A stretch of 59,827 nt of DNA from Kiritimatiellia bacterium. Lineage in GTDB: Bacteria; Verrucomicrobiota; Kiritimatiellia; RFP12; JAAYLN01. The stretch is from the NCBI GenBank assembly GCA_017962605.1, contig JAGCUY010000176.1, positions 1 to 59,827 of the forward strand, given 5' to 3'. A program made the position numbers and the translations under genes. The notes under the pieces are model-generated. The model made no database searches and was not told where the DNA came from. It worked only from the letters and a program-made list of their open reading frames with translations. Shown one piece after another: positions 13,727-59,827 of the stretch; the first letter of the stretch is position 1, and every line of letters begins with the position of its first letter.

Positions 13727-13756
13727 ATTTTACCTGACGACAAGGGTGAATGGCAA
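13727..13756 (-). promoter_or_regulatory. Putative internal promoter of the GH39-like gene
   Basis: TTGCCA (13751-13756), an 18-bp spacer and TAAAAT (13727-13732) lie just before the ATG at 13720. The element overlaps the last codons and stop of the upstream LamG gene, so it is an internal, leaderless-type promoter if used. Confidence 0.4.
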
Positions 13757-16132
13757 TTGTCCACGACGGAGGAACTCGGTCGGGGCGAGGATGCCGCGCG
13801 AGATGCGCAGTTCGTCGATCTGGCCGTTGAAGAAGGCCGTGGTGGAGGATGACGCGCCAATCCACACGGGCGCATAGCCCTCGCCGTAGCAAAGGCGTCC
13901 CGCCTTGGTCTTCGTCCATGCTGGCGTAGGGTTGTAGTCCTTATATATACTCGCCGTGACTTTGCCGTCCGATTGCGAGAGCGTAAGGGCAATGTGATGC
14001 CACTTGCCGTCGAATGCGACCACTCCCGTATCCTCGTTCATGCCAGTTTCCTCGAAATACGATGCGCCGACGAGCGCACAGCGGAAGCGAAGCACTCTGC
14101 TGTCATACTCGCCTCCTGAGAGCCCCCAGACGGGAATGGGTGCCGTATCGCGGTAAAGATTGCACCGCACGATACCGGCAAATTTTGCCTGAGGGTCTGC
14201 TTTTATGCGGAATTCTATCGTCTGGTCTTTGACTAGCGGCAAAAGCAGATTGTCGGCGTATTTCACCACGCCCGTGGAACAAGAGAGGACGGCGAGGTTT
14301 TCGCTTCGCAGGACGTTGTCGTTGCCGTCCACGACGCGCTCGCCAGCATCAAGAGCGACAAACGACGGGGGTGTGCCGCCGGCCGCAGCCGCCGTGGCGA
14401 CGCCGTTGGTGAGCGCGAAGGCCGGAGCGGAGGCGTCAAGGACGTTGTCGAACGTAGCCCAGGCAAGCGTCTTGCCGGAAAGAACGACGTGGTCGGGGCG
14501 CAGGAACTCGCCGACCGTCAGCGCCCTCATGGTGATGCGCACGTTGTCGATCAAGCCGTCGTAGGGCTTGTACGCGCCAGTGTTGTCGTAGCCGCCGCCG
14601 ATGTAGATCGGCGTGTTTGTCGGCGCTACCACACCTGTGTATGTAGGCGATGAAACCGGTTCGTAGTCGCGGAAGAGGGTCATCGTGCCGCGAGCGCGAT
14701 CAAAAACGACAGCCGCATGGTGCCATTGTCCGTCGTCGGTGCGAATCGTGTCGACGATCGAAACAGTGCTGCCCGCCGCCCCCGGCACCGTCGCCGCCGT
14801 GAGCTTGCCGACGTTTCCGCCGCCGCCGAATCCAATGTTGAACTGCACGTTGTAGCCGCCGAGACGACGCACAAGCGGCGTATATTCCGGCATCTGCTTT
14901 GCCGTCTTGTAGCAGCACTCAACCGTGAAAGACGAGTTCGAGAACACATCCTCCGGAGGTTGCCACGCAACGTAACGCTTAACGATCTCCCCGGTGGAGC
15001 GGTATCCTGTTGCATTCGTCAAGCAGTAGGCGCTTGTGCGGCCAGTCTCGTCCAGCAGCGAAGAGTAAACCGTCGAAAACGGTGTGGCGGCGGCAATGGT
15101 CTGCGGAATGGTCTGCGCACCCCAGTGGTGCACGGCTGGGCCGACAGCCGCGTCGTTGAAGAACCCCTGCGTTGTCGCAAGTCCTGTCGGCGGCTCGAAG
15201 TCGAGATGGAGCAGCACGTCGGAATCTTCGTCCGCCGCCCGTTCCGTGCGCGTGAAGTGAAGGAAGTCCGGTGGATCAAGCACTTCGTCGGAAATGCGGA
15301 AATGGGCTATGGAGCCGCCGAACGGCCCTGACGTCTGCGGCGTGTTGCCGATGAATAGGTCTTCGCCGGAGTTGTACCAGACGCTTTCATCAAGCGAACC
15401 CTCATTGGACAAGGCATAATCGAAGAATGTCTTGACCTTTTTGGTGTCGTCATTCACACTGAAGGCGACATGATGCCAGCGACCGTCATAGATTCCGGTC
15501 GTAAAAAAATCGACTGATTTGTTCGTGCCGGAGATGACCTCGCCGTTAATCGTGTAGCCCGACTTCGTGAAACGGACGGACATCTTGTTGTTTGCAATGA
15601 CGCGCAGTCCCCAGCTGTCGCAGTTCTTGATGGTGGTGCCTCCGTTCTTGAGCTGACCCGGCATGACGGCGACACAGTTCCAGTCGCCTTGGGCCGTCCC
15701 CTGCTGCATTCTGACGAAGCATTCGACGGTGAAGGTCTTGAGCCGCAAGGCCGCTGGGTCTGCAACGCGGAGCGCACCGGCGTTGCCGTTCAAATTGATC
15801 TTGTGGAAGTAGAGGCCCGTCGCCGCTGCGGCGTTGGTGCCGGAGACCGGATCATAGACGCCGTAGCCGGCCGGGAAGGCGTTGGTGCCTTGCGGACAGT
15901 AATCGCTGCCCGAAATCCACGATGCGCCGGAGCGCGACGACGGCACTGCGTCCAGCGTTCCACCATCACCTTGGTTGGCGAACACGGTTGCCGTCGTGGT
16001 GCGGACGCCGTTCTCGTAGGCCAGAGGCCAGTAAGCGACGGTGTTCGCCGCCGCGTTGGCCGCGGCGAATGCCACCGCTACTGTAGCGACGAGCGAGGAG
16101 TGACGAGTGACGAATTGAGGGGCTTTTTTCAT
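13730..16132 (-). CDS. Secreted protein with three LamG (concanavalin A-like) domains
   Basis: The 800-aa exported protein has three LamG domains. Each carries the signature block DGRWHH, DGQWHH or DGKWHH followed by a strand ending in a GxIDxxRI-type segment (GSIAHFRIS, DGLIDNVRIT, NGQIDELRIS). LamG folds bind glycans or proteins; no catalytic residues are seen. The ATG at 16132 has AAGGA 8 nt upstream and begins the signal peptide. Part of that peptide (FVTRHSSLVAT) is encoded by a TCGTCAC heptamer repeat. A GATAAT box at 16167-16172 may serve the gene. The protein ends LPFTLVVR-stop, one of the shared hydrophobic tails of this window. It lies between the AraC regulator and the GH39-like gene. 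Confidence 0.85.
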   Translation of the reverse strand: MKKAPQFVTRHSSLVATVAVAFAAANAAANTVAYWPLAYENGVRTTTATVFANQGDGGTLDAVPSSRSGASWISGSDYCPQGTNAFPAGYGVYDPVSGTNAAAATGLYFHKINLNGNAGALRVADPAALRLKTFTVECFVRMQQGTAQGDWNCVAVMPGQLKNGGTTIKNCDSWGLRVIANNKMSVRFTKSGYTINGEVISGTNKSVDFFTTGIYDGRWHHVAFSVNDDTKKVKTFFDYALSNEGSLDESVWYNSGEDLFIGNTPQTSGPFGGSIAHFRISDEVLDPPDFLHFTRTERAADEDSDVLLHLDFEPPTGLATTQGFFNDAAVGPAVHHWGAQTIPQTIAAATPFSTVYSSLLDETGRTSAYCLTNATGYRSTGEIVKRYVAWQPPEDVFSNSSFTVECCYKTAKQMPEYTPLVRRLGGYNVQFNIGFGGGGNVGKLTAATVPGAAGSTVSIVDTIRTDDGQWHHAAVVFDRARGTMTLFRDYEPVSSPTYTGVVAPTNTPIYIGGGYDNTGAYKPYDGLIDNVRITMRALTVGEFLRPDHVVLSGKTLAWATFDNVLDASAPAFALTNGVATAAAAGGTPPSFVALDAGERVVDGNDNVLRSENLAVLSCSTGVVKYADNLLLPLVKDQTIEFRIKADPQAKFAGIVRCNLYRDTAPIPVWGLSGGEYDSRVLRFRCALVGASYFEETGMNEDTGVVAFDGKWHHIALTLSQSDGKVTASIYKDYNPTPAWTKTKAGRLCYGEGYAPVWIGASSSTTAFFNGQIDELRISRGILAPTEFLRRGQLPFTLVVR

Positions 16133-20103: not shown

Positions 20104-21813
20104 CTATTGTGCGAACCCGTCAAGCAGTGCCCGTTTGCGCGGGGTGTCCTCGGGGGCCGGTTCCATGGCCGGGATGGAGGGGCCGATTTTCTCGACGTCC
20201 CAGACGGGGCTTTCACGGAAGGCGTGGTAGGTCCAATCCCAGCCAAACTCGTTAAAAAGCGCGATGCAGTCGCGCAGGTAGTTCTCCGCCCCCGACGCCC
20301 ATGCGGCGGCGCTGAACTCGCCCACATAGATGCGACAGTTGTGGCGTTTCTGGAAATCCAGCACAGGCGTGAGTTTTTGGCGCAGGAACTCGCGGGTCCA
20401 TCCCTTGGCGGCATCCGGCCACGCGATGGGGTTCCCGTCCTCCTCCCGTGGGCGCTTTGCGACGCCCTGGTGCGTGAAGGCGTGCGGCGCATAGACGTGG
20501 ACCTGGTAGATCACGTTGTCCATCGCAAGCGGGGAGAGATAGGCGTATGCGTCGGGCGAATCCCAGTCGTTGGACTCGATGACAATGGGCGTCACGGGGT
20601 CGATTTCGCGAACGGCTTCGGCGGCGCGGCGCTGGAGTGTCCAGTAGTCGATAGGGGCGCGGCCGAGCTGCACCGGCTCGTTCACAAGATCGTAGCCGTA
20701 GATGACAGGTCCCATCTCTTGCACGATAGGCGCACAGCGCGCGGCGATATGCCGCCATGTCTCGACGAAGGCGTTGGCAAGGCGCTCGTCGCGGAACATC
20801 GCGTGCTCGCGCGAGGCGTTCCGTCCGCCAGGCGTCACATGCAGGTCGACGCAAATCTTCATGCCGCGCGCATCGGCCCAGCACAGGACATCTTCAAGGT
20901 TGTCGAGGCGCGAATCGATCCAGGCGGCGTATTCGGCGAGGTCGGCGTTGTCGCCGACGGCGCTCCAGCGCCGAGTCATCTGGAAGCGAGCCATCGTCGC
21001 GCCCCAGCGGTGCAGAGTCTCGATGTCGTCCTCCGTGGTGTCACGGCCAGGCAGCATGCATCCTTTGAGCGGCTGACGCCGCTGCGCGGATGCAGGGGCG
21101 GCGCTTTGCGCCGAAGCGGGGGACGCGCGACATGCGACACGCGACTCGCCTGGCGACTTTTCGACATTTCGACATGCGGCACCTCTGCTTGTCGCTTGTC
21201 GCTTGTCGCCTGTCCCGCCTTCTGCGGTATCCGGCTTGTCCGGATACCGCACAACCCAGTCTTGGTTCACGCGGCGGAAGAGGCCGGGCGTGGGGGCGGC
21301 GCGGAGCGTGGAGAGGTCGAACTCGACGCGGCCGGAGGTGCCTTGGAGCCCGAGCATGAGCGTGGCTGAATCGGGGTGCGCCCCGGAGAAGTCAGCTTCG
21401 TTCAGTATGGCCTTGCGCGGGAAGTCGCCAGTCTCGCCTGCACAATTTGGGTAGCCTTCATGACCGGAAGCGCTTTCCCGCCAATGCAGTTGGAACTTGA
21501 GGCCGAGATACGGACGCGTGGGCTTGGCAATGCGTTCGCCGGATGCCTCGATCTGCATTGCAAAACCTCCTGCCCCATTCAGGAGCGAGAGAGGCAACTC
21601 CGTCGTCGCGCAGGCGTCGGCGGGTCCGGCCTCCGCCGGGATATCGATGATCAGCCGGTTTCCGTCGAGCGTCGCAAACTTTGCAGGAAGCCGCCATTCC
21701 AGACCGGCAAGCGGTGCCAGCGGAGGCATCGGAACCTGCACCTCCTGCGCCTGCGCCCCTTTGGCAAATGCGGCAACAAGGAAGGCGGTCGCCAGAAAAC
21801 GGGAGCGGTTCAT
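20104..21813 (-). CDS. Secreted GH5 enzyme, paralogue of the 2809-4419 gene
   Basis: The 569-aa protein repeats the layout of the other GH5: signal peptide (MNRSRFLATAFLVAAFAKGA), beta-rich module opening with LAGLEWRLPAKFATLDGNRL, and a GH5 barrel. The acid/base is Glu379 in YGYDLVNEPVQL and the nucleophile Glu499 in YVGEFSAAAW. Between module and barrel, residues 194-248 are an extra Ala/Arg/Ser-rich segment absent from the paralogue; its DNA is made of heptamer repeats. The gene begins immediately after the stop of the DUF2341-LamG gene, so the two form an operon headed by the XylR regulator at 24171-25343. Confidence 0.9.
   Translation of the reverse strand: MNRSRFLATAFLVAAFAKGAQAQEVQVPMPPLAPLAGLEWRLPAKFATLDGNRLIIDIPAEAGPADACATTELPLSLLNGAGGFAMQIEASGERIAKPTRPYLGLKFQLHWRESASGHEGYPNCAGETGDFPRKAILNEADFSGAHPDSATLMLGLQGTSGRVEFDLSTLRAAPTPGLFRRVNQDWVVRYPDKPDTAEGGTGDKRQATSRGAACRNVEKSPGESRVACRASPASAQSAAPASAQRRQPLKGCMLPGRDTTEDDIETLHRWGATMARFQMTRRWSAVGDNADLAEYAAWIDSRLDNLEDVLCWADARGMKICVDLHVTPGGRNASREHAMFRDERLANAFVETWRHIAARCAPIVQEMGPVIYGYDLVNEPVQLGRAPIDYWTLQRRAAEAVREIDPVTPIVIESNDWDSPDAYAYLSPLAMDNVIYQVHVYAPHAFTHQGVAKRPREEDGNPIAWPDAAKGWTREFLRQKLTPVLDFQKRHNCRIYVGEFSAAAWASGAENYLRDCIALFNEFGWDWTYHAFRESPVWDVEKIGPSIPAMEPAPEDTPRKRALLDGFAQ
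21070..21235. repeat. Heptamer tandem repeats inside the GH5 gene
   Basis: On the plus strand GCGACAT, GCGACAC and GCGACTC run near 21128-21150, and TTGTCGC occurs three times with a variant near 21188-21216. The units are 7 nt long and the insertion keeps the reading frame. It encodes residues 194-248 of the GH5 enzyme, a stretch missing from its paralogue. Confidence 0.75.
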
Positions 21814-45592: not shown

Positions 45593-47821
45593 CTACTGGA
45601 AGAAGATGACTGAGCCGGTGACGTTGTCACCGACGGTGCCGTAGCGTGTGAACGTAGCGTTGGCCGCGATGGTGTCGTAGGTCGCCTTCACCCAAGCATC
45701 CGAACGCGCCACCTTCGAGATACGGACTTCGTCGATCTTGCCGGGGAAGACCGTGCTTTTGCTGTAGTGTTCGTTTCCGATGGTCAGTGGCGCACTCGCA
45801 TTGTGAAGGCCGACACCCGTGACGTTACTGCCGGAAGACTTCTCGACAACGGATGTGCCATTAATAAATCCAGTTCGAATCCCCGTGCTGCCGTCCCAGC
45901 GGAAACTCTGGTGCGCCCACTCGTTCAGCTGGGGGTTTGCACCGGACCCTGGCCATACATCGCAATACCCATTTGCAGAAGTATATAAGACGCCGGTGAG
46001 TTGTCCACTAGTTTTCCGCTGATACAACTCGTAGGGAACCGACCAAGGACTCGGGGCCATTTTACTTATTAGGAAGGCATTGGCAGATGGATAGTCGGTT
46101 TGGAATGTCCAAGCTTCAAGGGTGATGCCTGGAAAGCCGTCATGGATGGTGCCGCCATCTGCGGCTTGGAAGCAACCGGTCATAACGCCGTCGCGTCCCA
46201 GCTCGGCTGCGGTGCCAACGATGCCATCAACGCCGCACAAGATGCCGTCGCGATAGGACGAAGGGGCGGTGACGTTCTTGCCGGTTGCGGTGGAGTCCTT
46301 CTGTGTGAAGGTTCCTTCGGCGGCGTTCATGTGCCACACGCCAACGTAGTTTGCGTCCCACACCTCTGTGGGATCGACTGCCGGCGCGAGGTTCCAGCCG
46401 TAGTAGCCCCTGATTCGAGTGTCCTTCGTGAGCGTTGGAATCTTGACCCAAATCAGTGATTCGCCATCCGGGTTCCAGACCTCGACTTCGCAGGGAAGGA
46501 GGGTGCCGTTCGCGTCGGCGAAGCGAAGGTCGGCGCCCCCCTCCTTCACGCAGTCGGCGTAGTGGAAGCCTGGGATGCCCGCTTCGGAGACCTTCACCAG
46601 CACGGGGAAGTCATCCAGCGTAGCGCCCTCTTCGACGCCGGGGAATGCGACCGAGAACTTGTGTGCGTATTTCGTCCAGTCATTCGGCACTTCAGAAACG
46701 GCGAAATCGTCGTTCGCGATGGTGTCGTGCGTCGCCGCAACCCAGTCATCGGAGCGGGCGACGTTGGAGACGCGGACTTCATCGATTTTGCCGGGGAACA
46801 CCATTTGTTGGTTTTGGAAAAAGTTCCCGACATAGAGAGATCCTCCAACAACAATGCCCGTTCCCTTATAATTGTTGTGAGCCACTAGTTCATGGACATT
46901 GTCTCCGTTTAAAAAGCCAGTTGTAAGTCCTGTGTCGCCGCGCCAGCGGAAAACCTGGTGTGTCCACTCGTTAAGTTGGACACCAGCGTGGGAGCTTCCT
47001 TGCCAAAAGCCAACAGCTGCCTGGGTGCCCACGCTGTTGGTTTTATAGATGTATGCGGCCATTTTCCCATTGGTGTCTTTCAGTTGCTGGAAATAATAGG
47101 CAGACTGGTTCACATTCGGGTCCTGTTTGTTGAAGATATAGCGATGTTCGGAAACATAGGCGGTTTGGTATGTCCACGTCTCCAGCGTTATGGCGCTTAA
47201 ACCGTCAAGGATACCTTTGGTGTCTGGCACGGAGTACCCTCCGGTCTTGACTCCTCCTTGTCCCAACTCGACAGCATAGCCAACCGCACCTTCTACCCTG
47301 CACTCCATGCCGTTCCGATACGAGGAGCTCGTAGAAAGATTGTGGCCGTTTATGGTGGAGTCTATTTGCCCATACGTAAGCGCGGACGCGTTCATGTGCC
47401 ATACGGCGAGATAGCCGTTGGTCCAGACATCGGTGGGTGTCACTTCGGGGGCGGCGGCGTTGCCGTAGCGGACGGTGATGGTCGTGTGATTGTTGAGCTC
47501 TGGGACGCTGACCCAGACGAGGGACTCGCCGTCGGGGTTCCAGGTGTCGACCTCGCTGGGGAGGAGGTTGCCGCCGGCGTCGAAGAAGCGCACGTCGCCG
47601 CCGCCCGTGAGTTCGCACTTGGAGTAGTCGAAGTTGTTGCGCGCCTTTGAGAGGCGGATGAGGGCGGGGAAGTTCGTCAGCGTCGTCGAGCCTTGGTAGC
47701 CGGCGAACTTGACGTTGAACTCCTTCGCGTATGACGGCTCGCCGTCGGCGAAGGTGGCGCGCGGGGCGCAGAGGATGGCCGCGGCGATTGCCGAGGCGAG
47801 GATGAACGTACGTTTTCTCAT
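45593..47821 (-). CDS. Secreted protein with two DUF2341-LamG units
   Basis: The 742-aa protein is built like that at 21814-24066: signal peptide (MRKRTFILASAIAAAILCAP), then two DUF2341 (FPALIRLSKARNNFDYSKCE; FPVLVKVSEAGIPGFHYADC) plus LamG units that end in IDEVRVSNVARSDDW and IDEVRISKVARSDAW. The linker AVWHMNASALTYG/GVWHMNAAEGTFT replaces the VWHLGE form. No catalytic residues are seen. It ends VTGSVIFFQ-stop. AAGGAGA lies 5 nt before the ATG, and a TTGACA-N17-AATAAT promoter drives it. A terminator follows, so it is largely its own unit. Glycan binding or display at the surface is inference. Confidence 0.87.
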   Translation of the reverse strand: MRKRTFILASAIAAAILCAPRATFADGEPSYAKEFNVKFAGYQGSTTLTNFPALIRLSKARNNFDYSKCELTGGGDVRFFDAGGNLLPSEVDTWNPDGESLVWVSVPELNNHTTITVRYGNAAAPEVTPTDVWTNGYLAVWHMNASALTYGQIDSTINGHNLSTSSSYRNGMECRVEGAVGYAVELGQGGVKTGGYSVPDTKGILDGLSAITLETWTYQTAYVSEHRYIFNKQDPNVNQSAYYFQQLKDTNGKMAAYIYKTNSVGTQAAVGFWQGSSHAGVQLNEWTHQVFRWRGDTGLTTGFLNGDNVHELVAHNNYKGTGIVVGGSLYVGNFFQNQQMVFPGKIDEVRVSNVARSDDWVAATHDTIANDDFAVSEVPNDWTKYAHKFSVAFPGVEEGATLDDFPVLVKVSEAGIPGFHYADCVKEGGADLRFADANGTLLPCEVEVWNPDGESLIWVKIPTLTKDTRIRGYYGWNLAPAVDPTEVWDANYVGVWHMNAAEGTFTQKDSTATGKNVTAPSSYRDGILCGVDGIVGTAAELGRDGVMTGCFQAADGGTIHDGFPGITLEAWTFQTDYPSANAFLISKMAPSPWSVPYELYQRKTSGQLTGVLYTSANGYCDVWPGSGANPQLNEWAHQSFRWDGSTGIRTGFINGTSVVEKSSGSNVTGVGLHNASAPLTIGNEHYSKSTVFPGKIDEVRISKVARSDAWVKATYDTIAANATFTRYGTVGDNVTGSVIFFQ

Positions 47822-47856
47822 TGATGTCTCCTTAGAAGGGTTTATAACAATGCTAA

Positions 47857-47885
47857 ATTATTCCAAAACTTTTCAGTCTTGTCAA
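47857..47885 (-). promoter_or_regulatory. Promoter of the 45593 gene, proximal copy
   Basis: TTGACA (47880-47885), a 17-bp spacer and AATAAT (47857-47862) make the best sigma-70 match in the window. A near-identical 66-bp copy lies just upstream (47940-48005). Confidence 0.75.
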
Positions 47886-48063
47886 GAACAGGAGGGAACA
47901 GGGAACAGGGAACAGGGAACAGGGAACAGGGAACAGGGAACGGGTTTATAACAATGCTAAATTGTGCCAAAACTTTTCAGACTTGTCAAGAACTGGAGGG
48001 AACAGGAAGAATGTGAAAATGTGAAAGTGTTGCCAATCCCAATGTTGCCAATGACCAATGCGG
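47886..48063. repeat. GGGAACA heptamer array with a duplicated promoter segment
   Basis: GGGAACA repeats six times at about 47896-47941. A second copy of the promoter segment (TTGACA at 47984-47989, with CACAAT in place of AATAAT) follows. After it come AATGTGA units, TTGCCAATG-type units and GGGGCTA/GGGACTA units. Nearly every unit is 7 nt. No gene is present. Confidence 0.85.
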
Positions 48064-48118
48064 GAATGGGGGCTAGGGACTAGGGGCTAGGGTTGGACTC
48101 CGTTCCGGCCGCCGCGCC

Positions 48119-48323
48119 TAACGCAAGTCGCTTCGCGACACGCAAGGGTTACGCTCGCATCGATGTGGCTACGACGGGCTACGCCCTACGCCACAATCGA
48201 TTCTCGCGTGGAGGTTGAAGGAACTTGCGGCAAAAGCGATTGTGGCGTAGCCGCCACGGGCGGCGTCGTAGCCACATCGGTTTTGACGCAGCTTTTGCGT
48301 CCGGCCACAGGCCGGTTGCGTTA
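48119..48323. repeat. Nested inverted repeat, about 200 bp
   Basis: The arm 48161-48199 (CGATGTGGCTACGAC...) pairs with 48237-48279 (...GTCGTAGCCACATCG). An outer pair TAACGCAA/TTGCGTTA lies at 48119-48126 and 48316-48323. No ORF fits it. Heptamer arrays flank both sides. It could be a miniature element or fold into a long RNA hairpin. Confidence 0.8.
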
Positions 48324-48325
48324 AT

Positions 48326-48445
48326 GGGGGAACAGGGAACAGGGAGCAGGGAACGTGGAACGGGGAATGGGAAATGTGAAAATGTGAAAATGTGGAAACA
48401 GCCAATGCCAATGAAGGGGCTAGGGACTAGGGGCTAGGGCCGGAC
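48326..48445. repeat. Drifting heptamer array (GGGAACA to AAATGTG to GGGGCTA)
   Basis: Units change stepwise: GGGAACA, GGGAGCA, GGGAACG, TGGAACG, GGGAATG, GGAAATG, TGAAAATG. GGGGCTA/GGGACTA units then end near the esterase stop. The closing words GGGGCTAGGGACTAGGGG are the same as those at 48069-48086 left of the inverted repeat. Confidence 0.8.
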
Positions 48446-49591
48446 TCCGATCCGGCCGCATCGCTCCTTGAATCTGGCGAGCGCTTCGACAATCCAGGTG
48501 CCGCTGCCGCCTTCCTCAAAATGCCCTGTGATTTCGCCGTGGTTCGTTTGCATGAAAAGCCGTGCCTCGTTCGGAACTCCCGCCCTTACGAGGCGATCAA
48601 CGAGGTCCGTAAAGTCCGCCACTGGGATGATGCCGTCGGAAGAGTTCCTGCGCGACTTTGGATCTGTGCAGGCGTAGGCGAGAATCGCCGGGCAGGACTC
48701 TGAATTCACGAGATGCACCGGCATCCATTTGCGGATGGCCGCCGCCGCCTTCCTCCGGCCCATTCGCGTCAAATCCTCGCCCACCAGCCAGGAAAGAAGC
48801 CTCTTCATCCGCCGCAACGACGGTATAAACCAGGCCGCCGGGGAAAAAACGACGCGGAAGAGCCGTCCCTTGGTGAGGTCTGACGGTCCCACGATGGAGA
48901 CCACGCACCTGACGCGCAGGTCATGGCGGAGCGCGACATCGGGAATCCTTGCGCCGTCCTGGTCCCATGCGTAGCACATCGCAAGGTGTCCGCCCGCCGA
49001 TTCCCCTCCGATGACGATCCTGTCTGCGGGCAGTCCGAGCCTTGGGAGTTCGGCCTTGAGGTAGGTGACCATGTCGTCGATGTCCGCGAGCATTCCGGCA
49101 AAAGTCGCACCTTCGCGCGGCGAGGCGTCCGGATGCGCGAAGATGTCATTCTGAAGCTGGTAGTCCATGGAGATGGTGAAATAGCCCGTGGCGGCAATGC
49201 GCCGGAGGAGTTCGTGGCTGGAGACATCCTTGTCAAATGGTTGTGACCAGCTCCCGCCGTGCAGGTACACGAACGTCGGCATTTCCGCGCGCGCCTCGGC
49301 GGAGGCGAAGAGCTCCTTGTCGAAGCGGAGGTCGAAGAACGTGCCGGAACGGTGCCGGCCGTATCCGCTCCCTGTGTATCCCTCACCTTCGTCTGGCGCG
49401 TCGCCGCGCGTTGAATAGGAGAGGTCGCGGTAGAAACAGATGTTTTTCCCGAGCGCGGACTCGGTCACGCCGCAGGGGAGCGACAGTTGGGCGGCAAGAT
49501 CAGTTGGACAGGGCGCTGGCGGCGCCGCGGCGGCTTTTACCGCCGCGACGGCAAGGGCGGTGAGCATAAGAATGCGAGAGCCAATTCCCAT
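48434..49591 (-). CDS. Secreted alpha/beta hydrolase (esterase/lipase, BD-FAE-like)
   Basis: The 385-aa protein has an N-terminal signal peptide (IGSRILMLTALAVAAVKAAA) and a serine-hydrolase fold. The oxyanion-hole motif is VYLHGGSWSQ (about residues 108-117) and the nucleophile is Ser198 in IGGESAGGHLA. The aspartate is probably in IIPVADFTDLVDRL and the histidine in QTNHGEITGH. This resembles carbohydrate or feruloyl/acetyl esterases of the BD-FAE group. It starts 3 nt after the stop of the broken acetylxylan esterase, last in the operon. De-esterification of hemicellulose is the likely role. Confidence 0.82.
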   Translation of the reverse strand: MGIGSRILMLTALAVAAVKAAAAPPAPCPTDLAAQLSLPCGVTESALGKNICFYRDLSYSTRGDAPDEGEGYTGSGYGRHRSGTFFDLRFDKELFASAEARAEMPTFVYLHGGSWSQPFDKDVSSHELLRRIAATGYFTISMDYQLQNDIFAHPDASPREGATFAGMLADIDDMVTYLKAELPRLGLPADRIVIGGESAGGHLAMCYAWDQDGARIPDVALRHDLRVRCVVSIVGPSDLTKGRLFRVVFSPAAWFIPSLRRMKRLLSWLVGEDLTRMGRRKAAAAIRKWMPVHLVNSESCPAILAYACTDPKSRRNSSDGIIPVADFTDLVDRLVRAGVPNEARLFMQTNHGEITGHFEEGGSGTWIVEALARFKERCGRIGVRP

Positions 49592-51087: not shown

Positions 51088-53169
51088 TTAATAAGCTGCC
51101 GGATTCAAGACCTTCACGAGCGAGAGGTTCTTGAACCGGAGTTCGTCGGTGGGAACGCCGGACTTGAAGTGCAGGGCCACCAAATCGGTCACGGCGGGGT
51201 CGAAGTCGAGGACAAGTTCCGCCTGGTAGCGGCGCCACTGCCCGTCGGCCGGAAGGGTGAACGGCGCCGTGAAATTCTTCTCGTTGGAGAGGACGACGGC
51301 GTTGAGCGGAACAGGTTCGCAGGCCTTTGCCGCGGCGTCGAATGTGAGCCGGTATGTGCCGGGACCATGCTGCAGGAATTGCTCGGTGATGACGTTGAGC
51401 ATGCCGGCGCCCTTTTCGCTCTGGATGAGGCGGTAGATGCGCGCGCCTTTCTCATTGGTCTCCATCGCCTCCAGCTTCGCCATCCACGATGGGCAGCGCT
51501 GCCAGACGCTGCGCGTGGCGGGCCGGTCTTCAAGCAGGTTCTCGTCGGGCGGCGGGGGCGGGAGCCTCTGTTCGCCGGATTGTGGGTTCGCCACCCTCCA
51601 GTCGCGCAGGAGCGCGTTGCCGACGTATGCCTTCCACGTGCAAACCCAGTTTACCTCGCGCCGGTCCGGTTGCACGGGAACCGCCGGCGGGAGGCTGTCG
51701 TTCGTGACGGTGATTGACGCAAGCTTGCCGTTTCTCACCGTTTCGGGGGCGAAGCCGCTTGCCCTTTTCCCTCCAATCCAGAGGTTCGTTATGGACAGCG
51801 TGTAGTTGTCCGTGATAAGCCACTTTGCCGGATCGTCATAGATTGTGATCGCGATGCCGTCGGTTTTGCCGATTTTGCGCCAATGGGTCTCGCCGGTGCT
51901 GTAGGGGATGGAAAGGTTCTCGAAGGCGAAAGTCTTGGGAAGCGTCCCCATGTTGCCGCCTACGAAGAAACGCGAGAAGAGGAGGCAATCGATGGCGCAG
52001 AGGTTGCGGATTTTGAACGACTGAATGCGTGGCGTGAGGTCCTGCGGCCCGCGCTCCCACTCCGCCTCCGTGACGTCCAGCTCCTTCCACTTCACGCGGC
52101 GGCGCAGGACGCCGTTGTAGGTGTTCTTCACAAGCCCCTCGTCGGCGCGGAAGACATTAATGTCCTCCATGAGGACGTTCTCGTTGGCGTGCTGCGGGAA
52201 GATGGCGTTGCAGGACGTGCCAATGGCGACATCGCGGTAGGTGGCGTTCTTCACGCTGCTGATGACAAGCCCGTTGTCGCCTACATAGAGCCACGCGCCC
52301 TCGACGCGTAGCCCTTCGCTGCCGCTGGTGATGCCGTCGGTGCACATCATGGAGGAGAGCGCCTTGATATTGCGGAAGGTGACGCGCGGAGCCCAGCTGC
52401 CGAAGTTGAAGGTGCGGGCATCGACGATCTTGATGTCCTCCACCACTGCGTCTGCGGCGGAGACGTTCACCGCGACGCGCTTGGTGTTGTTCAGCTGATT
52501 GAAGCGGAAGATGTCGGAGAAGGGATCAAGGACCATGCCGCGCCCGTGGACGAAGGCGCCGGGGGTTTTTATGAGGAGGCGCGAGTTCAGCACGGCGCCG
52601 GGGGCGATGTAAACTTCGCGGATAGGCGGTTCGACCACGATCACGCCCTCTTCAGTCGGCGGGTCGAGCCAGCCATCTACGTAGAGGACGCCTGGGTCGT
52701 CCTTGGCGGGGATTTTGGCCGGGTCTTCCGGGGTGTCGGCGAAGACGGAGAGGATTGTCTTGTCGAAGTCGTTGAGGCGGATGCCGAAGTTCGTCGGCTT
52801 TTCCAGCAAGACCGATATAACGCCGTCCTTGAAGCTGTGGCGCAACCCCAGCCGCGTCGGGAAGACCGAATATGAGCGCACGTCCTCGCAGACGGCGATA
52901 TCAACGCGCACCGGCTCGCCGGAGAACGCGAATTCGCAGAAGCGGCGGTTTACGTCGCCGCCGCGCGTCCGGTCTTGGAGGGCTGACTTCTCGCAGTGGT
53001 TGTAAACGGGGATTTCGCGCGTGTCGCCGCCGCGCTGCGAGACCGTCACGCGGTAGGCGTAGTCGCGCTCGATCTGCGGTGGGTATTCGGGGTAGATGAC
53101 AAGGCTCGACTCCGCCGAGGCGGCGGCGAAAAGGGCGAGTATGGTCGCTGTGGCGGTGGTGGTTTTCAT
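51088..53169 (-). CDS. Secreted right-handed beta-helix polysaccharidase (GH28/GH49-like)
   Basis: The 693-aa protein has a short signal peptide (MKTTTATATILALFAAASAE), an N-terminal beta-sandwich (to about residue 165) and a parallel beta-helix (about 170-520). The helix shows GRGMVLDPFSDIFRFNQLNN, FNFGSWAPRVTFRNIKALSS and CTDGITSGSEGLRVEGAW. A lectin-like C-terminal domain follows (about 560-690). Aspartates in the TDGIT and GDNGLV turns fit GH28/GH49-type active sites, but the family is not certain. Its ATG overlaps the stop of the preceding beta-helix gene (ATGA). Pectin, dextran-like or sulfated glycans are conceivable substrates. Confidence 0.7.
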   Translation of the reverse strand: MKTTTATATILALFAAASAESSLVIYPEYPPQIERDYAYRVTVSQRGGDTREIPVYNHCEKSALQDRTRGGDVNRRFCEFAFSGEPVRVDIAVCEDVRSYSVFPTRLGLRHSFKDGVISVLLEKPTNFGIRLNDFDKTILSVFADTPEDPAKIPAKDDPGVLYVDGWLDPPTEEGVIVVEPPIREVYIAPGAVLNSRLLIKTPGAFVHGRGMVLDPFSDIFRFNQLNNTKRVAVNVSAADAVVEDIKIVDARTFNFGSWAPRVTFRNIKALSSMMCTDGITSGSEGLRVEGAWLYVGDNGLVISSVKNATYRDVAIGTSCNAIFPQHANENVLMEDINVFRADEGLVKNTYNGVLRRRVKWKELDVTEAEWERGPQDLTPRIQSFKIRNLCAIDCLLFSRFFVGGNMGTLPKTFAFENLSIPYSTGETHWRKIGKTDGIAITIYDDPAKWLITDNYTLSITNLWIGGKRASGFAPETVRNGKLASITVTNDSLPPAVPVQPDRREVNWVCTWKAYVGNALLRDWRVANPQSGEQRLPPPPPDENLLEDRPATRSVWQRCPSWMAKLEAMETNEKGARIYRLIQSEKGAGMLNVITEQFLQHGPGTYRLTFDAAAKACEPVPLNAVVLSNEKNFTAPFTLPADGQWRRYQAELVLDFDPAVTDLVALHFKSGVPTDELRFKNLSLVKVLNPAAY

Positions 53170-54176
53170 GGTTGCGCTTCTTTCCTGTTTTCTATGTTTC
53201 TTGGGCTCTGCTTTTCCTTTCCGGCGTCTGGCAGTAGTTCGTAGGGCGTGTGTCCGTCGAACTCCACCCTATTGTCGCGGAAGACGATGTTGTCGCCGTT
53301 TTCCGCGTAGAGCGTCTGGCCGCGTGGGTTGATGAAGACATTGCCCTCAATAATTATATCGGAAATGATGTCGCGGCATGCCGGAATGACATCGGCCGCC
53401 GGCCCCCTTGCCAGGCGCTCTTCGACTTCGGCTTTCAACTGGGCGTCGCGGGTTGGAACGACGTTCTTCTCCGGCCAGCCCTTTGAGGACGGGATGCGGA
53501 CGCCGCAGTAGATCTGGGCGCTGACGCCGTTCACGAGGTTGCGGGCCGCGCAGTTCTCAAAGGTGCAGCCCCGGACGACGACGTTTGTGCAGCCCGTTCC
53601 CTCGCACCAGACGTTGTCGGCCTCGTCGATGTGCTTGTCCACGCAAACGCCCAGAAAGCCCAGCGGGGCAACGCCCCAGTCCCAGTCCATCGTCAGGTTC
53701 TCGACTCGGACGCGGCGGCAACGGTTGAGGAAGAGGTTCACGCCTTCCCCGACGGGGCCGCCGTCCTTGGCGTCCCAGTCCTTCGGGTGCTTGCGCCAGA
53801 AGACCAGCAGGGCGCCCTTGCCGTCGAGCGTGAGGTCCTCGCAGCCGTCAAGGACAATTCCGTCAGAGCCGTGGCAGCGGTAGGTTCCGGGGGTGAGTTC
53901 CAGACGGCTTGCGCCGTCGCGGCGGCAAGCCTCGATGGCGCGGTTGATTGCGGCGGCGTTGTCCTCATTCGTGGTTGAGAAGCCAAAGTCCTCGGCGCGG
54001 ATAATCCCGCCATGCGGGCGCGGCTGCTCGACCTCGAAATCCGCGCAGCCGACATTCGCGCCAGAGGCCAGGCCAACGGCAAGGGCGTGTGTGGCGAGCA
54101 GGGACAGAAGGATGCGACACGCGACGCGCGACACGCAACATGCGACAGACCATGCGCGACATTCGACAATCGACAT
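53166..54176 (-). CDS. Secreted right-handed beta-helix (pectate-lyase-like) protein
   Basis: The 336-aa protein has a beta-helix core with repeated strand turns (GTYRCHGSDGIVLDGCEDLT, NLFLNRCRRVRVENLTMDWD, TNVVVRGCTFENCAARNLVN, ISDIIIEGNVFINPRGQTLY). The opening motif ARxFGxSTTxEDNAAAINRAIEAC is the pectate-lyase-3/GH28 superfamily entry. Catalytic residues are not certain. The signal peptide (MSIVECRAWSVACCVSRVAC) is encoded by GCGACAC-type heptamer repeats. I take the ATG at 54176, with AAAAGG 5 nt upstream. It overlaps the next gene by 4 nt and follows the SSS symporter by 18 nt. Confidence 0.72.
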   Translation of the reverse strand: MSIVECRAWSVACCVSRVACRILLSLLATHALAVGLASGANVGCADFEVEQPRPHGGIIRAEDFGFSTTNEDNAAAINRAIEACRRDGASRLELTPGTYRCHGSDGIVLDGCEDLTLDGKGALLVFWRKHPKDWDAKDGGPVGEGVNLFLNRCRRVRVENLTMDWDWGVAPLGFLGVCVDKHIDEADNVWCEGTGCTNVVVRGCTFENCAARNLVNGVSAQIYCGVRIPSSKGWPEKNVVPTRDAQLKAEVEERLARGPAADVIPACRDIISDIIIEGNVFINPRGQTLYAENGDNIVFRDNRVEFDGHTPYELLPDAGKEKQSPRNIENRKEAQP

Positions 54177-54194
54177 CCTCACCTTTTCACCCCT

Positions 54195-56531
54195 TCACCT
54201 TTTCAACTTTTCAACCTGGGTTTCACCTTCCGGTGAAACCATCCCGTTGTCGCGGTCATCGCGGACGCGCGTTTCAAGATCGCGGAAGAGACGCCGGATA
54301 TCTCGTGTTGTGCCCCATGTGAACCAGATGGTCGTGACGATGCCGAAGACTAGCGGAACAACCAGAGCCGTGACGAAGGTCTTGACCACCCAGGCATGGA
54401 TTGACCAGTGGAAGACCTTGGCGCAGATCGCCACGAGGACGAAGGTGCCGAGGAACCCGTAGACGATGTTGTAGCCGAAGACCGCCCACGCCAAAACCCG
54501 ATCTTCTCGCGTGTATTCGGCATTGATGCCCACGAGGTGGTCGAGGAGGCGACGGAAGAAGCCGCCCGTGCGCGTGGTCGCGGTGGTTCGTCCTGCCGCG
54601 AGGGCGAGCGGAGAGGCCGCCGCACTCGTGGAATCCGCCCACTGGCCGCGATGCAGCATCTTTTCGAGATTAAAAGGCTTTCTGCAGGTGATTAGTGAGA
54701 CGATTATGTAGAGGCTCGTGGCAAATAGCGTGGCGATAAAGCTCAACTCCACCGAGTTCACGGGGAACTTGACGGCCCATTCGGCGTCGGTCACGGCCCA
54801 GCGGATCCAGGGGTCGAATGGCGCGGAGGCGACTTCGAGGAAGTGGCGGACGCCTGCCTCCAGGCCGTGCGCCGTCAGCCAGGGCAGGACGGTGTCGGCC
54901 CAGCCGCGCTGGATGAGGATGCCGCACAGCGAGAGTGTCGCGGCGGAGATCAGTGAGGCGTAGGCGCCGGCCGTGGTGCCGCGACGCCAGTAGAGGCCGA
55001 GCGTCACGATGGCCCCTGCGCCGGTGAACCACATCGAGCAGCCGATGGTGATGAACATCCTGATGTAGTCTAGCTGCGAGAAAATGCAGGAGCCTATCCA
55101 GAAGCATGCGCCGATGACCAGCACCACGGACTTGAACATCGCCAGGTGGAGGCGCGGCGACGGCGCCTTCTTGAAGAACGGCAGGATGAAGTCCTGCGTC
55201 CAGCACATCGAAATGTCGAAGATGCGCGTGTCGTCGGTGGAGACGACCAGAAGTATGCAGAGCATCAGCAGGAGGGCCGTGAGCCACTTCGGGAAGATGT
55301 TGCGGACGGCCACCGGCATCATTTGCTGCATGTAGGTCGTGCGGTAGCCCTGGTAGAGCTTGTTGGCGGCGGCTTCGTCGTCCATGTTCGCCAGAAGTGT
55401 CTCGCGGACGGCGTCCAGGGTTGGCGTGTCGAGATTCTGGGCACGGGAGAGCGGCGGATCGACGCCTATCTCGTGCACCTGCGCCGGAACGGCCGCCGCC
55501 GCCGCGCCGACTGCTGCGGCTACTTTCTCGTCCTGGACGAGTTCCTCGGCCACGCGCACCGAGAGCTCCTGGCGGATTTCATGCGCCTTGTCGGCGTAGT
55601 TGCGGTGGTTCATCGTGGCGATGATGCCGATTACTATGAAGAAGGGCAGCAGCCACGCCATGCCCGCGCCGAACGAGGATAGCAGGCTGGACATCTTCCC
55701 CTCGTGCGCCGACTTCGCCACGGTGCCGTAGCCGTTGCCGACCCACTCGCCGCCCATGATCCGCCGGTAGAAGGCCACCACGAGGGCGAAGAGGTTGAAG
55801 TCCCGGAGTTGCGAGATGTCGTATGGGTTCAGGAAGCTCTCGCCGGGAACGCGGTCCGTCATCACGGGGGCGATTTCGTCCCACCATGAGAAGCTGCACA
55901 GCACATAGACGATCAGCACCACGAAGAGCGGGTAGGAGACAAGCCCCTGGGCGGCGTCGGTGACGAGGAGGGAGATGCGGCCGCCGGCCATGATCATCAG
56001 GATCGCCAGCGCGATGCATGCCGACAGCAGGACGGGGAAGGTCCTGAACTGCTCGCCGAAAATCGTGAACCGGTGCGGTATGCCGAGGAGGTAGATGAAG
56101 AATCGCACGGCGACGGCCGGCCCAATGCAGTTGCCTAGCATGTCGGCGCTGCCGCGCAGCACCGCCGCGAGACGGCGCAGCCCCTTGCTGTAGCGCATCT
56201 CGAAGAACTGCCCCGCGCTCATGGCGCGCGTCTCCCTGAAGCGGTAGGTGATCCAGCCATAGAGGGCTAGCATGATGCCAAGTGGCGTCAGCAGCGCGTT
56301 CCAGAACTCGAAGGCGAAGCCGTTGTTGTAGTGGACTTCGGCGCTCGCGATGAGGATTGTCACGGCCAGGTTCCCCATCATGCTGCCGGAGATGAGGACG
56401 TAGCGACCGGCGCAGCGTCCGGCGACCAGGAAGTCGGAGACGCTCCGCACATAGCGGCGGCAGTGGACCGCCAGCGTGCAGACGGCCAGGACGGGAATTG
56501 CGACGATTAGCCAGTGGTACCAGGAGAACAT
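54195..56531 (-). CDS. Sodium:solute symporter family (SSS) transporter
   Basis: The 778-aa polytopic protein has the SSS core: SVSDFLVAGRCAGRYVLISG in the early helices and the loop RAMSAGQFFEMRYSKGLRRL. It is longer than the usual 500-600 residues because of a soluble insert at about 330-400 (KAHEIRQELSVRVAEELVQD...) and a C-terminal stretch with two further membrane segments. These symporters import sugars, sialic acids or uronates with Na+; the substrate is inferred from the operon to be a glycan breakdown product. The gene lies 5 nt after the GH16 gene and is co-transcribed. Confidence 0.87.
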   Translation of the reverse strand: MFSWYHWLIVAIPVLAVCTLAVHCRRYVRSVSDFLVAGRCAGRYVLISGSMMGNLAVTILIASAEVHYNNGFAFEFWNALLTPLGIMLALYGWITYRFRETRAMSAGQFFEMRYSKGLRRLAAVLRGSADMLGNCIGPAVAVRFFIYLLGIPHRFTIFGEQFRTFPVLLSACIALAILMIMAGGRISLLVTDAAQGLVSYPLFVVLIVYVLCSFSWWDEIAPVMTDRVPGESFLNPYDISQLRDFNLFALVVAFYRRIMGGEWVGNGYGTVAKSAHEGKMSSLLSSFGAGMAWLLPFFIVIGIIATMNHRNYADKAHEIRQELSVRVAEELVQDEKVAAAVGAAAAAVPAQVHEIGVDPPLSRAQNLDTPTLDAVRETLLANMDDEAAANKLYQGYRTTYMQQMMPVAVRNIFPKWLTALLLMLCILLVVSTDDTRIFDISMCWTQDFILPFFKKAPSPRLHLAMFKSVVLVIGACFWIGSCIFSQLDYIRMFITIGCSMWFTGAGAIVTLGLYWRRGTTAGAYASLISAATLSLCGILIQRGWADTVLPWLTAHGLEAGVRHFLEVASAPFDPWIRWAVTDAEWAVKFPVNSVELSFIATLFATSLYIIVSLITCRKPFNLEKMLHRGQWADSTSAAASPLALAAGRTTATTRTGGFFRRLLDHLVGINAEYTREDRVLAWAVFGYNIVYGFLGTFVLVAICAKVFHWSIHAWVVKTFVTALVVPLVFGIVTTIWFTWGTTRDIRRLFRDLETRVRDDRDNGMVSPEGETQVEKLKR

Positions 56532-59734: not shown

Positions 59735-59827
59735 TCCCCATTTATCCCATAATCTTCAAATCTTATATCGATCTCTCAAATCTCTCAATCTCTCTATCCT
59801 GAAATCTCAAATCTTAAATCTCAAATC
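59735..59827. repeat. AAATCTC-type heptamer repeats at the right edge
   Basis: Units AAATCTC and AAATCTT (7 nt) and related words (ATCTCTCA) continue to the window end after the XylR stop. No gene is seen. Confidence 0.75.

Follow-up and report, generated by a model that had tools for sequence, protein, structure and literature searches.

Arrays of 7- and 8-base words are scattered through the genome of a Kiritimatiellia bacterium, and the best reading, to which we give a probability of about 0.55, is that they are spreading, slippage-prone and largely neutral simple-sequence arrays filtered by their context. The window analyzed was a stretch of 59,827 nucleotides; it is an entire contig, and its right edge is therefore the contig end. 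A preliminary description of the window had reported heptamer arrays with gradually changing units and likened them to STRRs, the short tandem heptamer repeats of filamentous cyanobacteria. Heptamer over-representation in bacteria has long been noted, and we know of no accepted cause. With dozens of carriers in one order, known words, putative in-frame insertions, and a start rule, the origin, spread, and fitness cost of such arrays become testable. Furthermore, simple repeats as candidate leaders of conserved genes (ispF and rbfA) bear on translation initiation without a Shine-Dalgarno (SD) sequence.

Period enrichment and organization of the site at 47838-48439

The quantitative analysis used 528 kb of the genome, namely 40 contig starts, none of them among the contigs with listed matches to the whole window. 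Exact runs of period 7 numbered 103 in this sample versus 3.3 expected from fifth-order Markov sequences, and runs of period 8 (53 versus 3.5) and period 14 (18 versus 0.2) were likewise in excess. Runs with at least three exact copies occurred 20, 8, and 1 times at periods 7, 8, and 14, respectively, each versus 0.0 expected. Most periods besides 7 and 8 were near chance, with a mild excess at period 6 (17 versus 4.7) and period 9 (16 versus 4.2); these runs were mostly genic (14/18 and 18/19), and codon-multiple repeats would behave likewise. An additional 234 kb of the genome contained 23 period-7 and 20 period-8 runs. In the window, five period-7 runs covered 87 matching bases, where simulated third-order Markov sequences gave 14 on average and 42 at most, and eight period-8 runs were found, where the simulations gave at most 4. 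Tandem Repeats Finder (TRF) confirmed the arrays at the sites named earlier and returned 134 period-7 arrays per Mb for this genome, compared with 20, 80, and 33 for relatives and 12 for genomes of other orders (n = 4). The arrays are thus real, and period 7 is enriched genome-wide, which the preliminary description had left to be checked.

Two of the heptamers named in that description, GGGAACA and GGGGCTA, were recovered, whereas "AATGTGA" turned out to be an 8-base unit, AATGTGAA (48010-48030 and 48372-48398). Arrays were also present at the other sites it had listed (21122-21149, 21187-21214, 54114-54147, 54157-54175, and 59774-59827 at the right edge). The idea of single-base steps between units held for the size of the steps, with a mean difference of 0.90 bases between adjacent units in 245 arrays, but not as a steady drift, the difference at six units' distance being only 1.23. 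Changes between units in these arrays were mainly transitions (426 versus 147) and were concentrated at fixed positions, with 58% at the hottest position versus 39% if uniform. Words can also grade within one array, from GCCCCTA through TTCCCTA and TTCCCTG to TTCCCCG (L046, 280-340). At the left contig end of the window, a 12-base array, GACTCGGGCCCC, occupies positions 4-73.

Table 1. Positions of arrays and associated elements in the window
Feature	Position	Strand	Remarks
GACGAGT-type array	16088..16113	-	pyrimidine-rich sense; 9 nt upstream of called start of 13730-16075
TGTCGCN/CGACA arrays with hairpins	21083..21214	-	in frame within GH5 gene 20104-21813
Promoter-bearing segment, copy 1	47838..47902	-	TTGACA-17-AATAAT at 47885-47857, sigma-70-like; upstream of LamG/DUF2341 gene
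AGGGAAC x7 heptamer array, perfect	47893..47941	+	TRF: 7.0 copies, 100% match; between both promoter-segment copies
Promoter-bearing segment, copy 2	47942..48006	-	94% identical to copy 1; TTGACA-17-CACAAT at 47989-47961
Module M, copy 1	48000..48092	+	ordered GGGAACA, AATGTGAA (8), GTTGCCAAT, GGGRCTA
Quasi-palindromic MITE-like core	48119..48323	+	ends TAACGCAA...TTGCGTTA
Module M, copy 2	48328..48439	+	GGGAACA, AAATGTGA, GGGGCTA; overlaps 3' end of esterase-like gene 48434-49591
GCGACAC and octamer TCACCTTT arrays	54114..54215	+	between genes called at 53166-54134 and 54195-56531
AAATCTC array	59774..59827	+	contig end; TRF

The site at 47838-48439 is flanked by the LamG/DUF2341 gene (45593-47821) and the esterase-like gene, both on the minus strand. 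It consists, in order, of a 65-base promoter segment, AGGGAAC x7, the segment copy, module M, the quasi-palindromic core, and a second module M (Table 1). Within the modules, TRF reported GGGGCTA x3.4 at 48069-48092, GGGAACA x5.7 at 48328-48367, and AGGGGCT x3.6 at 48415-48439. Module M had 21 matches at 17 places (1-kb bins) in the 528-kb sample, where the core was absent, and the reversed-sequence control had 0. A single genome holding so many different words of 7 and 8 bases is new, as is the ordered, dispersed module that the words of this site form. When the window was searched against its own genome, 80 matches at E <= 0.01 were obtained, of which about 30 were strong and many lay at contig ends. 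No match to the flanking esterase was found in five relatives, so these offer no empty version of the site.

The core is 205 bp long and adjoins module M in some copies. Among 76 genomes searched, it was found in one, its own, where it is dispersed; the 528-kb sample is conservative for it because contigs with listed matches to the window are absent from that sample. Ten copies could be aligned, with 90% mean column identity and inverted ends, and the consensus folds at -115 kcal/mol. Being short, non-coding, multi-copy, and bounded by inverted ends, the core is MITE-like. None of 90 pairs had changed on both sides, which is evidence neither for nor against a conserved RNA fold, and the best match in an Rfam search had an E value of 0.72, far below the cut-off.

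Vocabulary of the arrays across genomes

Word families, picked by eye, were counted by place in 1.13 Mb of the host genome, among them TTCCCYR at 56, CAACYYYY at 46, CACAYYYY at 41, CGACANN at 37, CCCTAGY at 25, CTARCSA at 21, CAAATYY at 16, and CGACYTT at 11. Three copies of GGGAACR were present in 39 of 191 genomes and three copies of CAACYTTT in 49 of 191, all inside the order of the host, and neither was found in 30 genomes of the same class from other orders (0/30). This recurrence of two words across one order, with none in the 30 genomes outside it, is new. The two words occurred together in 25 of 161 genomes, one word alone in 14 and 24, and neither in 98 (Fisher p = 5e-7, uncorrected for kinship). 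GGGRCTA x3 is much narrower: with 99 matches in its own genome and two matches in one other genome, it was found in 2 of 191 genomes overall and in 2 of 16 genomes chosen for GGGAACA, one of these two also having one match to the reversed pattern.

The 49-base AGGGAAC x7 tract was found in at least 118 stretches of public named genomes, a lower bound that may omit the host genome itself. These were mostly cyanobacteria, and the matches listed also included Clostridia, Acidobacteria, Gemmatimonadetes, Victivallales, Phycisphaeraceae, and Proteobacteria. Besides AGGGAAC, 5 of 58 heptamer classes were common to the host and cyanobacterial contigs. Carriage by phages was considered, with 64 matching stretches among viral contigs. 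In three contigs of one relative (G068: C6, C8, and C10), CAACYTTT arrays form facing inverted pairs about 60-80 bases apart. A genome of the same genus (G001) has words of its own, CACAGAGAACACAAAGG and CTTTGTGAACTCTGTGG, located within and downstream of a gene homologous to one that bears arrays (L261, 6600-7400).

Arrays beside start codons and inside genes

Gene calls (748 across all samples) came from a home-made caller based on codon scores, and start positions are therefore approximate. Intergenic positions held 76 of 108 period-7 runs and 47 of 58 period-8 runs, with 13% of the sample called non-coding; the order of genes flanking 93 islands was close to background. Of 74 arrays lying closer to a start, 62 had a pyrimidine-rich sense strand, as did 32 of 39 for words without GGG or CCC, whereas only 36 of 61 arrays closer to a stop fitted the mirror-image rule (p = 0.2). 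The lean increased with proximity: it was 48/61 when the array ended no more than 60 nt from a start and 32/35 when it ended no more than 23 nt away. There was no bias within 60 nt after a stop (22/50). On core-bearing contigs together with the window, the nearest-flank rule was weak (30/49, p = 0.15).

Among genes with pyrimidine-rich arrays, 1 of 45 had an SD core, compared with 4 of 13 where the array was purine-rich and 132 of 656 where there was none, genes too near a contig end being omitted; the depletion relative to array-less genes was significant for the pyrimidine-rich set (Fisher p = 0.0012). Leaders with pyrimidine-rich arrays within 25 nt (n = 29) had a G content of 5% versus 26% in the others (n = 661) and a median folding energy of -2.4 versus -11.6 kcal/mol, a low degree of structure that follows from base composition. 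That start-adjacent arrays are pyrimidine-rich, nearly G-free, and without SD is a new observation.

The caller could conceal purine-rich arrays within extended ORFs. Inside called genes, one such array was seen in the first 90 nt and five at 90-300 nt, too few to offset the excess of 58 versus 17 over the 80 nt upstream of starts. When an in-frame stop ruled out an upstream start, the ratio was only 10 to 6, in a small subset that favors purine-rich arrays because the commonest pyrimidine-rich words are stop-free. Pfam families were identified in 16 of 20 submitted proteins downstream of such arrays. Behind such arrays, the domain starts at residue 1 in IspF, 5 in RbfA, and 8 in the LUD protein, which supports those called starts. 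These sequence data suggest that the arrays form SD-less leaders of some conserved genes, ispF and rbfA among them.

In 61 cyanobacterial contigs, chosen for carrying AGGGAAC x7, arrays were pyrimidine-rich on the sense strand upstream of starts (25/33) and purine-rich after stops (56/77), in agreement with the orientation at ORFs given in PMC4692102; SD cores (1/25 versus 38/262) did not differ significantly there (p = 0.22). The start rule was not replicated in three relatives (531 kb), where 3 of 11 arrays were pyrimidine-rich and arrays were few. Between co-directional genes, C exceeded G on the sense strand in 48 arrays versus 24, a bias that was absent on core-bearing contigs (9 to 9) and stood at 7 to 3 in a third sample. 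Rho-utilization sites, considered for this C lean, were set aside because arrays right after stops are unbiased. Neighboring arrays of opposite orientation were arranged purine-then-pyrimidine in 17 cases versus 1, for which a start-codon filter suffices. Telomerase-like end growth, or 3'-end extension at breaks, was rejected because the nearest-flank rule is strong at starts and not at stops.

In the host genome, 34 arrays measuring 20 nt or more were located 90 nt or deeper inside called ORFs. The GH5 island at 21.1 kb is common to two other paralogues and corresponds to a gap in two more. The gene at L057 11976-13106 carries AAAGTCG and GCGACAT arrays at the position of two CAACTTTT-type units in a homologue from the same genus, the two proteins being 72% identical over 286 residues. 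A UmuD-like homologue without the array showed a clear gap in the alignment, and a fourth pair (L063/L061) aligned poorly. Twenty further loci (L109-L128), 19 from relatives and one from the host genome, were not a random draw; among the 19, a GGGAACR array fell within a called ORF in 16. The array-bearing genes in relatives included those for ValRS, a DEAD-box helicase, and, in two families, UmuC-like polymerases whose arrays fell in the same loop. Alignment to solved structures placed the ValRS and DEAD-box arrays in loops of variable length, and because such loops vary these two cases alone are not proof of insertion. GGGAACR-type arrays in ORFs were read in the sense orientation 18 to 1 in a manual count, to which L116 adds one opposite case, and this reading encodes hydrophilic GNGERGT-like loops. 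Arrays that appear to run in frame within genes, some homologues of which lack the array or have another word, are new.

Three related ORFs (L039 8542-11058, L049 15069-17696, and L337 3383-6322) run stop-free through several arrays. They continue into a segment resembling a new start (MN...), and may represent two fused genes or a miscalled start.

Origin of the arrays and comparison with known systems

Under the spreading reading, new sites would start from copied words already in the genome, which could travel singly, as module M, or together with the palindromic core, and not solely from slippage of the sequence at the site. Slippage or unequal exchange would then set array length and higher-order patterns, point transitions would accumulate between units, and selection would filter the result. 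After stops, both orientations would be tolerated; before starts, the pyrimidine-rich, nearly G-free, unstructured strand would stay on the sense side; inside genes, frame-keeping arrays would survive, with GGGAACR mostly as GNGERGT. Several observations weigh against spreading: single sites may be compatible with local slippage, the start rule did not show in the small samples of three relatives, and the in-frame-stop subset is only 10 to 6. In addition, few words are common with cyanobacteria, GGGRCTA occurs in only 2/191 genomes, and the nearest-flank rule is weak on core-bearing contigs. In the data examined, no donor-to-target copying event, copying enzyme, or target-site duplication was seen. 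A loss of mismatch repair is not needed as a cause, since 23 of 24 genomes, some rich and some poor in arrays, had MutL. A more far-reaching and rather doubtful proposal is that words of 7-8 bases are extended and re-seeded by some copying activity, possibly that of a DNA polymerase or reverse transcriptase. The lexicon spread in this way would endure across the order while its positions turn over, and SD-less leaders and in-frame loops would be written into essential genes.

Replication slippage that acts only locally, in steps of 7-8 nt and arising afresh at each site, would account for the unit-length preference irrespective of sequence, the transitions between units, and the multi-unit blocks, and PMC4692102 cites an explanation of heptamers by the footprint of the polymerase. 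It does not easily explain why a few words recur at many unrelated places and across genera, the reversed pattern giving no or few matches (a weak control for CAAC words, as CAAC is identical read backwards), why module M keeps its order at 17 places, or why homologues lack the array at the same site. On these grounds, spreading is favored and slippage alone seems unlikely. Positive selection for translation leaders, in which the arrays would be unstructured, SD-independent landing tracts for ribosomes (through S1 or a similar protein), is suggested by the sense orientation, SD depletion, and low structure beside starts, by the conserved genes downstream, and by the same orientation bias in cyanobacterial contigs. 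As a general explanation we regard it as rather improbable: many arrays lie away from starts, those after stops are unbiased, arrays inside genes go unexplained, the low structure is a consequence of composition, and relatives show 3/11. Arrays that adjoin starts may act as leaders, which leaves the remaining arrays unexplained.

The palindromic core with its inverted ends beside module M, together with 15 Y1_Tnp matches in the host genome, would fit arrays that are passengers of MITE- or REP-like palindromes mobilized by IS200-type (Y1, RAYT-like) transposases. Most arrays, however, lack the core, which had 0 matches in the 528-kb sample drawn from outside the contigs with listed matches to the window, and no core was seen in the flanks of ten Y1 loci. 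Y1 numbers do not track arrays either: two genomes with 21 and 14 matches (G177 and G171) had no match to GGGAACR, CAACYTTT, or GGGRCTA, and G068, with one, had the most CAACYTTT matches among the genomes listed. Y1 transposases are thus unsupported as drivers, and the passenger reading is very improbable. G-quadruplex regulatory elements, as for GGGNATC-type repeats, are hardly credible here; GGGAACR and GGGRCTA arrays of at least four units fit the usual G3 N1-7 motif, but four G3 runs on either strand were found in only 50 of 245 arrays, and the start rule holds for words without GGG or CCC. As separate observations, the window encodes a Y1_Tnp (IS200/RAYT-like) protein at 326-1381 on the minus strand, and several of the ten inspected Y1 loci were bordered by short palindromes, such as AAGGGTGACACCCTT, unlike the core.

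Heptamer arrays are known in cyanobacteria, Xanthomonas, and Beggiatoaceae (PMC4692102 and PMC4679880), and the latter paper also mentions heptamer assemblages in certain Cyanobacteria and Bacteroidetes. A limited literature search of partial coverage returned no paper describing such arrays in the host lineage. The likeness to cyanobacterial STRRs, including the Nostoc GGGGA(C/T)T repeats (PMC4692102), holds for the period of 7, the intergenic position, the many arrays per genome, the common AGGGAAC x7 tract, and the pyrimidine-rich sense strand before starts. It is incomplete, since the host is also rich in octamers, has a composite ordered module, a palindromic core, and in-frame arrays, is unbiased after stops where cyanobacteria are purine-rich, and has only those five other heptamer classes in common with them.

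The TAACTGA repeats of Beggiatoaceae, proposed as translation leaders, resemble the host arrays in their closeness to start codons and in the scarcity of SD sequences, which occur in about 10% of the regions that bear TAACTGA repeats and in 1/45 of the host genes, whereas one word dominates there and many occur here; in-frame interruption of conserved genes, frequent in the host, is not the theme of that paper in the part available (PMC4679880). The Xanthomonas GGGAATC repeats are likewise G-rich heptamers with an orientation tied to the nearest ORF end, and are read as G-quadruplex-forming in PMC4692102, whereas four in five host arrays lack the motif. Rickettsia palindromic elements also lie in frame within unrelated conserved genes, but are palindromes of about 150 bp according to the review PMC10969869, in contrast to the simple 7-base arrays of the host. 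Finally, 125 bases at positions 13-137 of a host contig (L058) were 92% identical to positions 13-137 of a contig of G001 (L255), at an equal offset from the contig ends in two species.
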